Assembly: GCA_018262795.1 (NCBI GenBank)
Contig: JADFDM010000002.1
Span: 248,001 to 312,000, forward strand
DNA: 64,000 bases
DNA from: Sphingobacteriales bacterium
Lineage (GTDB): Bacteria > Bacteroidota > Bacteroidia > Chitinophagales > LD1
Direction of reading: 5' to 3'
This document shows positions 6,283-51,577 of this stretch, piece after piece. The translations under genes and the position numbers were made by a program. The notes beneath the pieces are model-generated. The model was given only the letters and a program-made list of their open reading frames with translations, searched no databases and was not told where the DNA came from. Each line of letters opens with the position of its first letter. Positions within the stretch are counted from its first letter, which is position 1.

Positions 6283-6314
6283 TCATAGCCCACGGTTTAA
6301 ACCGTGGGCTATGA
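6283..6314. repeat. 32-bp perfect palindrome, REP-like
   Basis: Positions 6283-6314 read identically on both strands, centred on TTTAAA at 6296-6301. The arms contain AGCCCACGG/CCGTGGGCT. It begins two bases after the stop codon of the carboxypeptidase-regulatory-like gene and sits before the phosphatase gene. In RNA it can form a 13-bp stem with a short loop. There is no T-tract, so a simple intrinsic terminator is less likely than a REP-type element or an mRNA-processing hairpin. Confidence 0.7.
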
Positions 6315-6316
6315 TT

Positions 6317-7273
6317 TCAACCTACGGGCAGCAGCGCAGCGTTCACGGTAGTGATGGCATCTTCCGTTATGCTGATGTTGCTTACATCTTTCAAAGCATA
6401 ACCGTTTTTATAAATCTTGAGGTTATAGACTCCCGGAGGCTGCACGGCAATCAGGTATTTGCCCTGTGCATCGGTTTTTTCTACCACATCGGTGTTGGTG
6501 AGCGTCACCCTCGCATCAGCAATTGGGTTGCCCGTAGCGCTATCGGTCACGGTGCCCATGATCGAAAAATCATCCGAACTGGCGGCCTCGCCCGGATTCG
6601 GCACATACACCACGCCCCATTCGCGAGCTTTGCGCCTCGTGCTGGGTTTGTTGCCTTCATCAAAAGCGGTTTCCGTTTCGTTCCACATTTTCAAAATCAG
6701 CTTATCGCATTTCGAGGTATCGGCCTCTACCGCTTCTTGAGCCAGATCGAATGCTTCTTTCGCATTGGCCTGCAACAGGTTGGCATTTTTAAAATCGGTG
6801 ACAGCCGCTGTGACCTCGGCAATGCTCGGAAAAGTAATAGGCACTCCCCCGGCAGCTATGCGCGCAGCTTCACCGGTAGCAGCTTTATCTCCCCAAAATT
6901 CAATATCGGCTTCGCTGCGCATAATCGGCACGCTGCCACTGCTGGCCGGCAGCCCATAAAACGTGCGCACCGAAGGTTTAAATATTTTTCTGCGCACAGC
7001 ATTTTGCATGGCCTGAAAAAAATGGTTGGTATTCAATCGAGCCATTTGGCGCTTTTCACTTATCAGTATAGAGAGGTAGGTTTGTGCTTGCAGGGCAGCT
7101 TGTTTGGCCTCTACTTTTAGTTTATAAGCAGGATAAAACATATCGAGCCGTGTAATAGTGCCGCTACTGTAAGGAATTATAAGCGGTAAGGGTAAGGAAT
7201 CCTTGCGGAGTTTCCCTTGGTGTAGTGCCTTTAGCCGACCGGTAGCAGATTTTGGCAAACTTCTCTGTGGCAT
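6317..7273 (-). CDS. conserved protein with C-terminal carboxypeptidase-regulatory-like domain
   Basis: The protein has 318 residues and no signal peptide or membrane segment. The N-terminus is basic (PQRSLPKSATGRLKAL). The middle (about 45-220) is Ala-rich and predicted helical, with many Gln and Lys residues. The C-terminal 85 residues form a beta-sandwich typical of carboxypeptidase-regulatory-like (CarboxypepD_reg) domains, with MGTVTDSATGNPIADARVTL and TDAQGKYLI. Such domains are often protein- or glycan-contact modules. I recall similar Bacteroidota proteins but know of no assigned function. It lies between the 42-bp repeat array and the phosphatase gene, and a 16-bp stem hairpin lies 44 bp upstream of its ATG. 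Confidence 0.6.
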   Translation of the reverse strand: MPQRSLPKSATGRLKALHQGKLRKDSLPLPLIIPYSSGTITRLDMFYPAYKLKVEAKQAALQAQTYLSILISEKRQMARLNTNHFFQAMQNAVRRKIFKPSVRTFYGLPASSGSVPIMRSEADIEFWGDKAATGEAARIAAGGVPITFPSIAEVTAAVTDFKNANLLQANAKEAFDLAQEAVEADTSKCDKLILKMWNETETAFDEGNKPSTRRKAREWGVVYVPNPGEAASSDDFSIMGTVTDSATGNPIADARVTLTNTDVVEKTDAQGKYLIAVQPPGVYNLKIYKNGYALKDVSNISITEDAITTVNAALLPVG

Positions 7274-7316
7274 AGGTTCAAATTTTAAGGATTTGGTTAT
7301 AAAAGTAAGAATTTTA

Positions 7317-7362
7317 TATCAAGAAGGGGGTAGAAATAAATATTTTTACCCCCTTCTTGATA
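7317..7362. repeat. hairpin at the left edge of the 42-bp array
   Basis: A perfect 16-bp inverted repeat (7317-7332 and 7347-7362) is separated by a 14-nt AT-rich loop. The right arm is the start of the first 42-bp unit. The left arm together with the loop resembles the last part of a unit in reverse orientation, so the array ends in an inverted partial copy. It lies 44 bp upstream of the start of the minus-strand gene at 7273 and could act in its leader. Confidence 0.75.
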
Positions 7363-7941
7363 CAGAAATAGGCAGAATTATTTGTTTTTAGGGTATTCTT
7401 GATGCAGAAGCCTACCGAATTATTTATTTCTACTCATTTCTTGATTCAGAAAGATGCCAAACTATTTATTTCTACAGCATTCTTGATGCAGAAGCCTATC
7501 GAATTATTTATTTCAATGCCATTCTTGATACAGAATGATGCCAAATTATTTATTTCTACTCATTTCTTGATGCAGAAAGATGCCAAACTATTTATTTCTA
7601 CAGCATTCTTGATGCAGAAGCCTACCGAATTATTTATTTCAATGCCATTCTTGATACAGAATGATGCCAAATTATTTATTTCTACTCACTTCTTTAAACA
7701 GAAATAAACTGAATTATTTATTTTGATAGTATTCTTGATACAGAAATCAACCGAATCATTTATTTGAATTGAATTCTTGATCTGGAAATGTTTAGAATTA
7801 GTTATTTCGATATAATCCTTGATACTGAAATTGGCAAATTGATTTATTTGTATGCCATTCTTGATACAAAAGTGAGCCGCATTATTTCTTCTGATTATGT
7901 TCTTGATACAGAAATCAGTTGTTTTTTTGGTTCTGAAACCT
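7354..7941. repeat. tandem array of 14 x 42-bp units
   Basis: Fourteen units of exactly 42 bp start every 42 bases from 7354 to 7900. Most begin with TTCTTGATACAG or TTCTTGATGCAG and carry a central ATTATTTATTT. No unit differs in length, though the outer ones differ in sequence. Units 3-5 (7438-7563) and 6-8 (7564-7689) are copies of the same trimer with three base differences that I could see. Because 42 is divisible by 3, open frames run through parts of the array on both strands (14-residue peptide repeats); I see no start context or signal that would make them convincing genes, so I call it a noncoding minisatellite. 42 bp is close to four DNA helical turns. Confidence 0.9.
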
Positions 7942-8323: not shown

Positions 8324-8704
8324 AACCACTAAGAACACAAGGGATACACGATGAACACAAGAGAAGCTCATGGTGACCTTTGTGGTAAAAGCATTGAATT
8401 GTTAAAGGTCTATCGTCTAAAGTCTATCATCTAATTATCTAAGATGGTTAATGAGAGGTCCCGTATTAGCTGTTCGATTAACTCCGGCCTTTAGGCTGGA
8501 GATAGAATCAACCAAACCTCCTGGGCTTTAGCCCTGATTGTGTTCGGAGTCATGGCTAAAGCCAATACGAGGTGTTGCGTTTCTCTCCGCCATAAATGAC
8601 GGAGTTAATTATTTTCTATCGGTCGAAGTTTCATGGATCGAAACATTCAGCAGGTAAAGGCTCCATCTATCAGAACAAAAATGAACCACTAAGAACACAA
8701 GGGA
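8324..8704. repeat. 381-bp direct repeat, copy 1
   Basis: This unit recurs at 8710-9090 (offset 386) with only one substitution seen (C at 8460, A at 8846). Inside it are an inverted repeat ATTAACTCCG (8477-8486)/CGGAGTTAAT (8600-8609), the palindromes GGGCTTTAGCCC (8523-8534) and TGGCTAAAGCCA (8553-8564), and the ACCACTAAG/CTTTGTGGT pair. No open frame of note. Confidence 0.9.
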
Positions 8705-8709
8705 TACAC

Positions 8710-9090
8710 AACCACTAAGAACACAAGGGATACACGATGAACACAAGAGAAGCTCATGGTGACCTTTGTGGTAAAAGCATTGAATTGTTAAAGGTCTATC
8801 GTCTAAAGTCTATCATCTAATTATCTAAGATGGTTAATGAGAGGTACCGTATTAGCTGTTCGATTAACTCCGGCCTTTAGGCTGGAGATAGAATCAACCA
8901 AACCTCCTGGGCTTTAGCCCTGATTGTGTTCGGAGTCATGGCTAAAGCCAATACGAGGTGTTGCGTTTCTCTCCGCCATAAATGACGGAGTTAATTATTT
9001 TCTATCGGTCGAAGTTTCATGGATCGAAACATTCAGCAGGTAAAGGCTCCATCTATCAGAACAAAAATGAACCACTAAGAACACAAGGGA
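8710..9090. repeat. 381-bp direct repeat, copy 2
   Basis: Second copy of the unit at 8324-8704, five bases after the first. The near identity points to a recent tandem duplication, or to an assembly error. Confidence 0.9.
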
Positions 9091-49835: not shown

Positions 49836-51146
49836 ATGAAAGCCATCCTTCCTGCTAAAAAAAAATATTTCCCTATGAGATATTCAAGTCCTGACATACA
49901 CCTTAACTTAAACGTTCGCGGACTAAAACCTTCCGCCACACTGCAAATCAATGAGAAATGTGCCGCGCTAATGAGCGAGGGCAAAAAGGTATATCGCTTC
50001 GGATTGGGGCAATCGCCCTTTCCGATTCCCGATGAAGTGGTGAACTCTCTGAAAGCTAATGCTTATCGAAAGGAATACTTACCCGTGAAAGGATTGAGAG
50101 AATTGCGGGATGCGATTGCCGCTTTCAACGAACGAGTGCAGCAAATAGAAATTAAAAGGCAGAACGTGCTGGTAGGCCCCGGCTCCAAAGAGTTGATATT
50201 CCTGCTGCAATTAGTTTATTATGGAGAGCTGATTATTCCCACCCCCAGTTGGGTTTCGTATGCCCCGCAGGCAAAAATCATAGGTAGAAACATTACCTGG
50301 GTGCCCACCCGCAAGGAAGATAACTGGGTGCTACAGCCGGAGATGTTGGAGAAACTGGCGAAGGACGATCCCTTTCGCCCTCGGTTGGTGATCTTAAATT
50401 ATCCCTCGAACCCTACAGGATATGCTTATCCTAAGGAACGATTGAAGCAATTAGCTAAGGTGGCGCGGAAATACAAAATGATTATTGTGAGCGATGAGAT
50501 ATATGGGCTGCTCAACTTTGAAGGGAAGCACGATAGCATTGCGCATTATTATCCCGAAGGAACCATTATCAGCAGCGGACTGAGCAAATGGTGCGGAGCG
50601 GGCGGCTGGCGCTTGGGCTTCTTCTCCTTTCCTCCCGAATTGGTGTGGCTACAAGAGGCCTTGGCCGTAGCCGCCAGTGAAACCTTTACTTCCACCTCTG
50701 CCCCTATCCAATATGCGGCCATCACCGCTTTTCAGGGAAGCCCGGCTATTGAGAAATATCTGCTCGATTCCAGAAAAGTATTAAAAGCAATAGGCTGCTA
50801 CCTGACCGATGAATTGAATGAATTGGATATCCAACTTCATTACCCGCAAGGTGCATTTTATCTGTTCCCCGACTTCAGTCGCTTTAAAGATAAATTGCGC
50901 GAACGAGGGATTTACACCAGTAAGCAACTCTGCGAAAAGTTATTGGAAGAAACGGGAGTGGCCATCCTTCCCGGCTCTGATTTTGGAAGACCTCCCGGTG
51001 AAATGACTTGTAGAATGGCCTATGTAGATTTTGATGGCAATCACGCATTGAAAGTGGCTGATACCTTTAAGGCAGGAGAAGAACTATGCCCCACCATGAG
51101 CGAAGGAGTTCAAGTGCTTAAGAATTGGATGAGTCGCTATTCGTGA
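49836..51146 (+). CDS. class I/II PLP aminotransferase
   Basis: The 436-residue enzyme has the fold-type I aminotransferase motifs: NYPSNPTGY, SDEIYG, and the PLP Lys in SSGLSKWCGAGGWRLG. Residues near FRFGLGQSPFPIP-like text (RFGLGQSPFPIP) bind substrate. The start may be the ATG at 49875 (MRYSSPDIH), because the first 13 residues are basic and unlike the family. An aspartate or branched-chain type substrate is possible; it is not resolved. Confidence 0.85.
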   Translation: MKAILPAKKKYFPMRYSSPDIHLNLNVRGLKPSATLQINEKCAALMSEGKKVYRFGLGQSPFPIPDEVVNSLKANAYRKEYLPVKGLRELRDAIAAFNERVQQIEIKRQNVLVGPGSKELIFLLQLVYYGELIIPTPSWVSYAPQAKIIGRNITWVPTRKEDNWVLQPEMLEKLAKDDPFRPRLVILNYPSNPTGYAYPKERLKQLAKVARKYKMIIVSDEIYGLLNFEGKHDSIAHYYPEGTIISSGLSKWCGAGGWRLGFFSFPPELVWLQEALAVAASETFTSTSAPIQYAAITAFQGSPAIEKYLLDSRKVLKAIGCYLTDELNELDIQLHYPQGAFYLFPDFSRFKDKLRERGIYTSKQLCEKLLEETGVAILPGSDFGRPPGEMTCRMAYVDFDGNHALKVADTFKAGEELCPTMSEGVQVLKNWMSRYS

Positions 51147-51577
51147 TTCGTTATTGGTTATTCGTAATTCATTATTAGTTAATCGAGTTGTTCTATATAC
51201 ATTCTCAATGCTTGAGAGAAAAAGCAACATACCTGAAACAGACATCCGGCAACAATTTAGTCCCTCCTTTCTGAGAGTTGAAAACTTTTGAAGTTTAGTT
51301 TGTAACCATCAACCGCTTGGAACTCATAGACAATCTTTTCCTCCTCGCTTTCTCTTGCTTCATCATCCATACCCAAATAGATTCCGGAGTAATCGTTGGG
51401 CTATCAAAACTTCAGTAGTCGCAAACGATACACCTGAGAATTAGCAGCGAAGCCCGATTCATCTTATGTAGTAGAGATTGTTCAAAAATTGTTTTCAAAA
51501 AACTTTCATTTCTAATTACGGGTTCTAATTTTGGTGCGCCTTAACAAATTTCCATTCAAGGTTAAAGTTGACATCTT
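51147..51577. other. 431-bp intergenic region before sdhC
   Basis: The first 40 bases are a degenerate run of ATTCGT/TTATT copies. I see no gene or RNA in the rest. The sdhC promoter lies near the right end. Confidence 0.55.
51504..51533 (+). promoter_or_regulatory. candidate promoter of the sdh operon
   Basis: TAATTTTG (51526-51533) matches TAnnTTTG; the upstream TTTC (51504-51507) with an 18-bp spacer is an imperfect -33 box. The sdhC ATG is 44 bases downstream of the -7 box. Confidence 0.45.

Follow-up and report, generated by a model that had tools for sequence, protein, structure and literature searches.

Why does a bacterium keep 14 consecutive repeats of one exact length, some of them diverged in sequence, just in front of a single gene? 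The locus that raises this question lies in a 64,000-nucleotide stretch of DNA from a Sphingobacteriales bacterium (contig JADFDM010000002.1, positions 248,001 to 312,000; hereafter the window). We propose that the array and the gene right behind it make up a two-part module, apparently undescribed, in which the array is the DNA component; a search of the open-access literature found no relevant paper. In the reading that we prefer, which rests on sequence comparison and to which we give a probability of roughly 0.45, the repeats would form a helically phased operator array, and a symmetric protein, probably encoded by the linked gene, would bind it.

The array in the window and the gene behind it

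The units of the window array follow one another in a single register with zero indels, as the sequence-only reading had counted them, and their length has stayed regular while the outer units have diverged from the rest, which that reading had also seen. Tandem Repeats Finder (TRF) describes the array as a period of 42 bp in 13 copies (70% match) and detects a second, higher-order period of 126 bp (88% match) that is formed by the inner units. With up to two mismatches allowed, the window contains 18 copies of the core TTCTTGATNCAGAA where 3.4 would be expected, and 0 of 100 shuffled windows reached that number; 14 of the 18 matches are the array's own units. Two blocks, TTCTTGATNCAGAA and GAATTATTTATTTC, are conserved in each unit, with variable 7-bp stretches between them, and the two 14-bp sites occupy unit positions 1-14 and 22-35 (Table 1).

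Table 1. Coordinates of the array, its sites and the linked gene in the window.
Feature	Position	Strand	Remark
Array, 14 x 42 bp, two 14-bp dyad sites per unit 21 bp apart, 7-bp linkers	7354..7941		upstream of minus-strand gene
Gene-proximal unit, inverted and diverged	7312..7353
Palindrome at the gene-side end of the array, 20/21 arm positions paired, 4-nt loop	7317..7362		junction of inverted unit and unit 1
Site 1 of first unit, TTCT-TGATAC-AGAA, 14 bp	7354..7367
Site 2 of first unit (positions 22-35; consensus block GAATTATTTATTTC)	7375..7388
Leader, array to start codon	7274..7316	-
Array-linked gene, 318 aa	6317..7273	-
N-terminal domain, aa 1-237	6563..7273	-	no relative found in Pfam, NCBIfam, PHROGs, PADLOC or PDB sequences
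C-terminal CarboxypepD_reg-like domain, aa 237-314	6332..6565	-

Simpler descriptions of the array were set aside. A coding array was rejected because its units contain stops in the frame of the listed ORFs and because some arrays of the family have periods of 41 or 43. Phased A-tracts are suggestive at most, the AA/TT power at 10.5 bp being 0.112, second to the 42-bp term at 0.135. The long inverted repeat on the gene side is exceptional in the family (arm score of at least 10 in 3 of 48 loci), so that an inverted cap or terminator was rejected as a general feature. Other repeats of the window are a 386-bp tandem duplication (99% match, AACCACTAAGAACACAAGGG-type repeats) in the intergenic DNA beyond the array (8324-9090), a perfect 30-bp palindrome, CATAGCCCACGGTTTAAACCGTGGGCTATG, at 6284-6313, in the gap between the linked gene and a CpsB/CapC-like gene whose start it overlaps, and a short repeat of the heptamer TCGTTAT in 7.4 copies at 51134-51185.

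Some properties of the linked protein count against the operator reading. No DNA-binding fold was recognised in it, its single-sequence AlphaFold model is poor (mean pLDDT 47), and the N-domains of the family, whose pI ranges from 4.6 to 10.0, are in many cases acidic. No hydrophobic signal sequence was seen in the window protein by eye. Homologues measure 229 to 402 aa, and those of 229-245 aa are so short that they have no space for a CarboxypepD_reg-like domain; the two 396-aa homologues scanned carry two such stretches each, the window protein one. Among genomes of the family, 9 of 30 had a match to the N-domain; the order gave 12 of 396, the class 29 of 395 (including three matched only at E about 0.0004) and a draw from the phylum 7 of 395, these samples overlapping and each containing the window's genome. 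Since the class and order searches scored the best seven candidates per genome at most, copy numbers there are minimum values. The carrier group is taken to be Bacteroidota, as the named carriers are Chitinophagaceae and Bacteroidales assemblies. A phage or plasmid origin was rejected: tblastn against phages and plasmids gave no match to the gene, and viral contigs held no confirmed relative.

Linkage and site geometry across the family

The link between array and gene, which had been suggested from the window alone, is real. It was counted in 68 of 83 distinct homologues (full N-domain, start codon found, above 60 bits), of which one more was dropped for its short upstream DNA. In the resulting set of 67 full-length homologues, all with 300 bp or more of upstream DNA, autocorrelation found an upstream array of 41-43 bp that is clear in 53, weak in 6 and absent in 8; downstream of 66 homologues it found none that is clear and 4 that are weak. 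When 46 lags were compared, 42 itself scored best in 53/67 loci, and one of 41-43 did so in 59/67. A looser count gave 56/82 upstream, 2/79 downstream and 0/82 after shuffling, and TRF placed 40-44-bp arrays upstream of 51 of the 73 homologues with at least 200 bp of upstream DNA, ending 38-130 bp from the start codon in 43 of these and 176-688 bp from it in 8. Repeats with a period of 126 bp lie downstream at two loci, L170 and L121, and speak against the operator reading. The period is nearly constant while the unit sequences vary from locus to locus and are mostly unrelated, in line with the earlier suggestion that length rather than sequence is conserved. A feature of polysaccharide loci, as which the array had first been read, it does not appear to be: the array goes with the gene in varied surroundings, and a conserved neighbourhood was rejected, the neighbouring genes falling into 28 single-linkage clusters of which the largest comprises just 11 loci.

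In the midpoint-rooted protein tree, arrays are found throughout the deep branches, and the array state needs to change a minimum of three times (weak rows excluded). Six of the eight array-less homologues, with proteins of 229-240 aa, form one clade (99% SH-aLRT). This clade shows that the protein can do without the array and is a point against our model. Five of its six members have the gene flanked by two others that, judged by their sequences, are probably polyprenyl synthetase-like and TatD-like; these conserved surroundings, at the array-less loci L126, L127, L128, L129 and L130, may hint at the original role of the domain. The remaining two rows are L145 and L142, and the DNA of the latter stops 833 bp upstream; its near-identical relatives L114 and L143 have an array about 690 bp upstream.

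The arrays share a common arrangement, a 14-bp dyad site in every 21 bp with variable 7-bp linkers. The analysis covered 58 arrays, two repeated loci having been removed from 60. Some of the 58 are akin to each other: 25 pairs have at least 26 of 42 consensus bases in common, a kinship that weakens the case. The best dyad is centred between bases in 54 of the 58 arrays and consists of 4-bp arms, 3-6 bp from the centre, around a 6-bp spacer. Its score is biased, because the centre was picked by that score; an independent sign is the second dyad at exactly 21.0 bp, with a mean score of 0.85 against -0.27 to 0.19 off both centres, and this position is the second-best centre in 19 of the 58 arrays. 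Around both centres, the conservation of units within the 54 between-base-centred arrays is high up to 6 bp and falls at 7, and the +21 centre played no part in the fit of this profile. In the paralogous arrays L099 and L101 (TTAC-AGAACT-GTAA and CGAC-AGAACG-GTCG), five of six spacer bases are kept while both arms have changed together.

We propose the following mechanism for this geometry. With centres 21 bp, or two helical turns, apart, all sites would lie on one side of the DNA, where a symmetric protein, a dimer that the linked gene most likely encodes, may bind them side by side and build an ordered nucleoprotein stretch beside its own gene. The same protein would act at cognate arrays that stand without the gene at other places in the genome, and each paralogue would read its own unit sequence. 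That the window array might be a protein-binding array on one DNA face, as the sequence-only reading had supposed from its period, is made plausible by the 21-bp dyad spacing and the 14-bp conserved footprint. Iterons and centromere-like parC arrays are familiar precedents in which sites spaced by whole helical turns are bound cooperatively beside the gene of the binder. The present arrays resemble them in that their sites are a whole number of helical turns apart and near the gene of a candidate binder; they differ in having many loci and fast-changing site sequences, and in a linked protein that matches no Rep or Par family.

Gene-less arrays and the possibility of propagation

Arrays also occur without the gene. 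The unit of the window array was found in only one other array of its own 3.48-Mb genome (G000), at C11:180800-181290, between two minus-strand genes of which one is presumably sufE-like. Contig C11 also carries long 27/45/54-bp repeats inside an ORF that appears collagen-like by eye (L180, 2068-4759). BLASTN of the window array against 59 relatives (best 10 candidates scored in most) gave one 48-bp match, and none in 17 genomes of the same genus. The second gene-linked array of G000, on contig C15, has a gene-less relative at C5:24587-25028 (81% over 441 bp) and a short, poorly periodic one at C12:50771-50894 (77%; lag-42 identity 0.52), so that each of the two gene-linked arrays of G000 is matched by cognate copies without a gene. 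G001 apparently also contains dispersed cognates; no second copy was found in G014 or for the single G1107 array tried, which counts against our model. Dispersed cognate repeats, as RAYT genes have them, were accordingly seen in some of these genomes and not in others.

These copies bring us to the alternative that fares best, a propagating element of the RAYT-REP type, in which the gene would copy, expand or move arrays in trans and the gene-less arrays would be its non-autonomous offspring. We regard it as somewhat unlikely. According to PMC2817692, RAYT genes show obligate linkage and co-evolution with their repeats, whose abundance tracks the gene, and the pattern here is alike. Palindromic intergenic repeats dispersed in trans and a cognate sequence for each paralogue are further shared features. 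Two gene-less loci, L270 and L271, keep the leader of the C15 gene as far as its start codon, beyond which the gene is lost (alignment scores 58 and 71 against shuffled maxima of 30 and 32); the C5 and C12 copies carry the leader up to this point before they diverge, and therefore probably derive from a gene-linked copy. Propagation would also suit the number of gene matches per genome, which reaches at least 8 with fragments counted, and the evident expansion of arrays, seen in the 126-bp higher-order repeats and in lag-42 identities of 0.98 and 0.95 in two solo arrays. Against it, leader retention was not seen in the C11 array or in two arrays of G001 (L272, L273). The flanks of solo arrays held no remnant when compared with the gene itself, and gave one weak score (39, shuffled maximum 33) when compared with the DNA after it. 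No transposase or recombinase family appeared in any scan; at the level of Pfam families, the Y1 (HUH) transposase domain of RAYT was missing from the matches of the window protein and of 68 N-domains (E 0.05), and a RusA nuclease match in 1/68 N-domains (E 0.033) is at noise level; set A2 comprises 68 of the 70 listed homologues, L126 and L110 being omitted. Unlike RAYT genes, the gene is not flanked on both sides, clear arrays being confined to the upstream side. A final difference from RAYT-REP systems is that the repeats stand in helically phased tandem arrays and vary in sequence between loci of one genome.

Sampling of genomes bears on propagation and on our own model alike. Stretches of 20 kb, placed at round coordinates, covered 800 kb of 15 gene-bearing genomes (in two of which, G467 and G561, every homologue is array-less) and 690 kb of 12 genomes that lack the gene, among them genomes of the same genus; none of the stretches contained a homologue. 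Non-ORF arrays of 21n bp numbered 13 in the gene-bearing sample and 0 in the gene-lacking one (p 0.0003), a comparison that may be biased because the gene-bearing stretches come mostly from contigs known to hold homologues, and in which 6 of the 13 arrays lie near the threshold of 0.56 (scores 0.56-0.58) and one at a stretch edge. By genome, the figures are 6/15 against 0/12 (p 0.017), where one of the 12, G045, yielded only Ns. The gene-bearing set held 15 non-coding tandem arrays, 13 of them at lags 41, 42, 62 or 63; ORF-overlapping lag-42 repeats came to two per sample set. In these samples the gene-less arrays track the gene, and their density grows with the count of gene matches, fragments included (rho 0.77). 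None was seen in eight gene-bearing genomes with at most two gene matches (20-100 kb sampled; G000 among them), nor in G512 (5 gene matches, 20 kb sampled). Besides the threshold and contig effects, the poor dyad of gene-less arrays counts against the operator reading: among the ten that were not handled as 21-bp periodic, the second-best centre falls at 21.0 bp in one (L034).

When public genome contigs were scanned for the pattern of the array, 21 loci were returned, with a TRF array at the match in four (L038, L042, L043, L045), and homologues were sought in the genomes of eight of the 21. L042, from a Chitinophagaceae assembly, is a 42-bp array without a homologue in its 8 kb (about 0.7 kb on one side). 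Its genome, reached by the array pattern, contains five homologues, as had been expected beforehand; four have their own, different 42-bp array and the fifth has just about 280 bp upstream. The other seven genomes comprise one of Bacteroidales with an array-less homologue and six without a homologue. To these six belong the Treponema and Planctomycetaceae genomes that have 21-bp arrays; across bacteria, such arrays are thus not exclusive to carriers, which is a further point against our model. The Treponema and Planctomycetaceae arrays (L043 497-713, L045 1816-2008, L038 3170-3573) consist of TTCTTGAT-type units.

DNA or RNA, and the identity of the binder

The other of the two best-supported alternatives, neither of which fits all tests, is that the array is transcribed and acts as RNA, be it a type III antitoxin, a TIGR-like guide array or a structured mRNA leader. 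It is distinctly unlikely in our judgement. Transcription of the gene through the array is conceivable, as none of 51 loci has the motif TAnnTTTG, which we take to be the Bacteroidetes -7 element, in the 120 bp that directly precede the start; in the whole gaps between array and start, which are A-rich and G-poor, it occurs 4 times in 6,154 bp, near the downstream rate. The same motif is missing from both strands of the gene-linked arrays (51 loci, 12,165 bp), against about 0.5 per kb downstream. RNA folding, set against 20 shuffles per strand, gave z-scores of -2.7 on one strand and -3.9 on the other, which would suit a structured transcript; Rfam yielded matches below threshold only. The mispairs, on the other hand, speak against RNA stems on either strand. 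In the dyad stems, G-T mispairs number 63 and A-C mispairs 69, and at the +21 dyad 47 and 60, while Watson-Crick pairs exceed the column-shuffled expectation by 126 and 58 (9, 19 and 5 at three control shifts). As G-U pairs are not in excess, the selected object looks like double-stranded DNA. Terminator-like hairpins are likewise rare, in 6/44 loci on the gene strand, 3/44 on the other strand and 0/44 after shuffling.

The known RNA systems also diverge from the locus in their particulars. Type III toxin-antitoxin loci (ToxIN, CptIN, TenpIN; PMC5449768) share with it tandem repeats directly upstream of one gene and variable repeats beside a conserved protein. The present family differs in that Pfam and NCBIfam gave no match to a ToxN-family endoribonuclease, in that arrays occur also without the gene, and in the missing RNA-level signature, for which mispairs and hairpins are an indirect test. 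TIGR-Tas arrays (PMC12045711) likewise have two alternating conserved blocks with short linkers beside one gene, and block sequences that vary between loci. Their units are 36 nt, unlike the 42 bp as 2 x 21 found here, and no Nop domain was detected by sequence search in 68 members (Pfam) or among eight PDB sequences to E 5. The linkers, moreover, are not independent, unique spacers, for they are on average 77% identical where both sites are conserved (271 unit pairs; random 0.27), the window array, at 0.49, being of the more variable kind. Graded unit divergence and related linkers also set the arrays apart from CRISPR; among four proteins run through PADLOC, the window protein had no match and one homologue matched Cas8e (0.0072) and ZorA (0.034) weakly.

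It may also be asked whether another host protein, nucleoid-associated or shape-reading, binds the sites, the linked gene being no more than a preferred neighbour. We consider this decidedly improbable. A constant geometry with widely variable unit sequences is compatible with reading of shape, and the acidic N-domains and the two gene-lacking genomes with 21-bp arrays would be readily explained; the tracking of the linked gene by arrays in the sampled genomes, and the upstream position kept across deep branches of the family, argue for the linked protein instead. Neutral minisatellites expanded by slippage, the fallback of the sequence-only reading, are scarcely credible: the 126-bp duplications and the gradual fall of linker identity with site identity would suit them, but they fail to account for one period and one dyad spacing common to mostly unrelated unit sequences (the unit length thus being constrained), for arrays on the upstream side only, or for their absence from the 690 kb of gene-lacking genomes.

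Returning to the operator reading, we infer that the linked protein binds the array, probably as a dimer, and that binding would lead to local regulation or to an ordering of the chromosome, and not to propagation. More tentatively still, it can be hypothesised that the loci belong to a class-wide, undescribed system of Bacteroidota, in which a protein family would establish and maintain dispersed phased arrays of fixed spacing and paralogue-private sequence, that is, self-renewing chromosomal addresses, each with its reader. A family without a match in the libraries searched is here tied to DNA that shares one geometry, with a 14-bp dyad at each second helical turn. Should the protein be the reader of the array, these would be natural, matched and mutually distinct protein-DNA pairs that diversify quickly while their architecture is kept, and a class of intergenic repeats would be explained; if the protein makes the arrays, it would represent a new route by which a genome generates ordered repeats. 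In both cases, a single protein and a single DNA fragment would allow a direct test of why phased intergenic arrays occur in some genomes.
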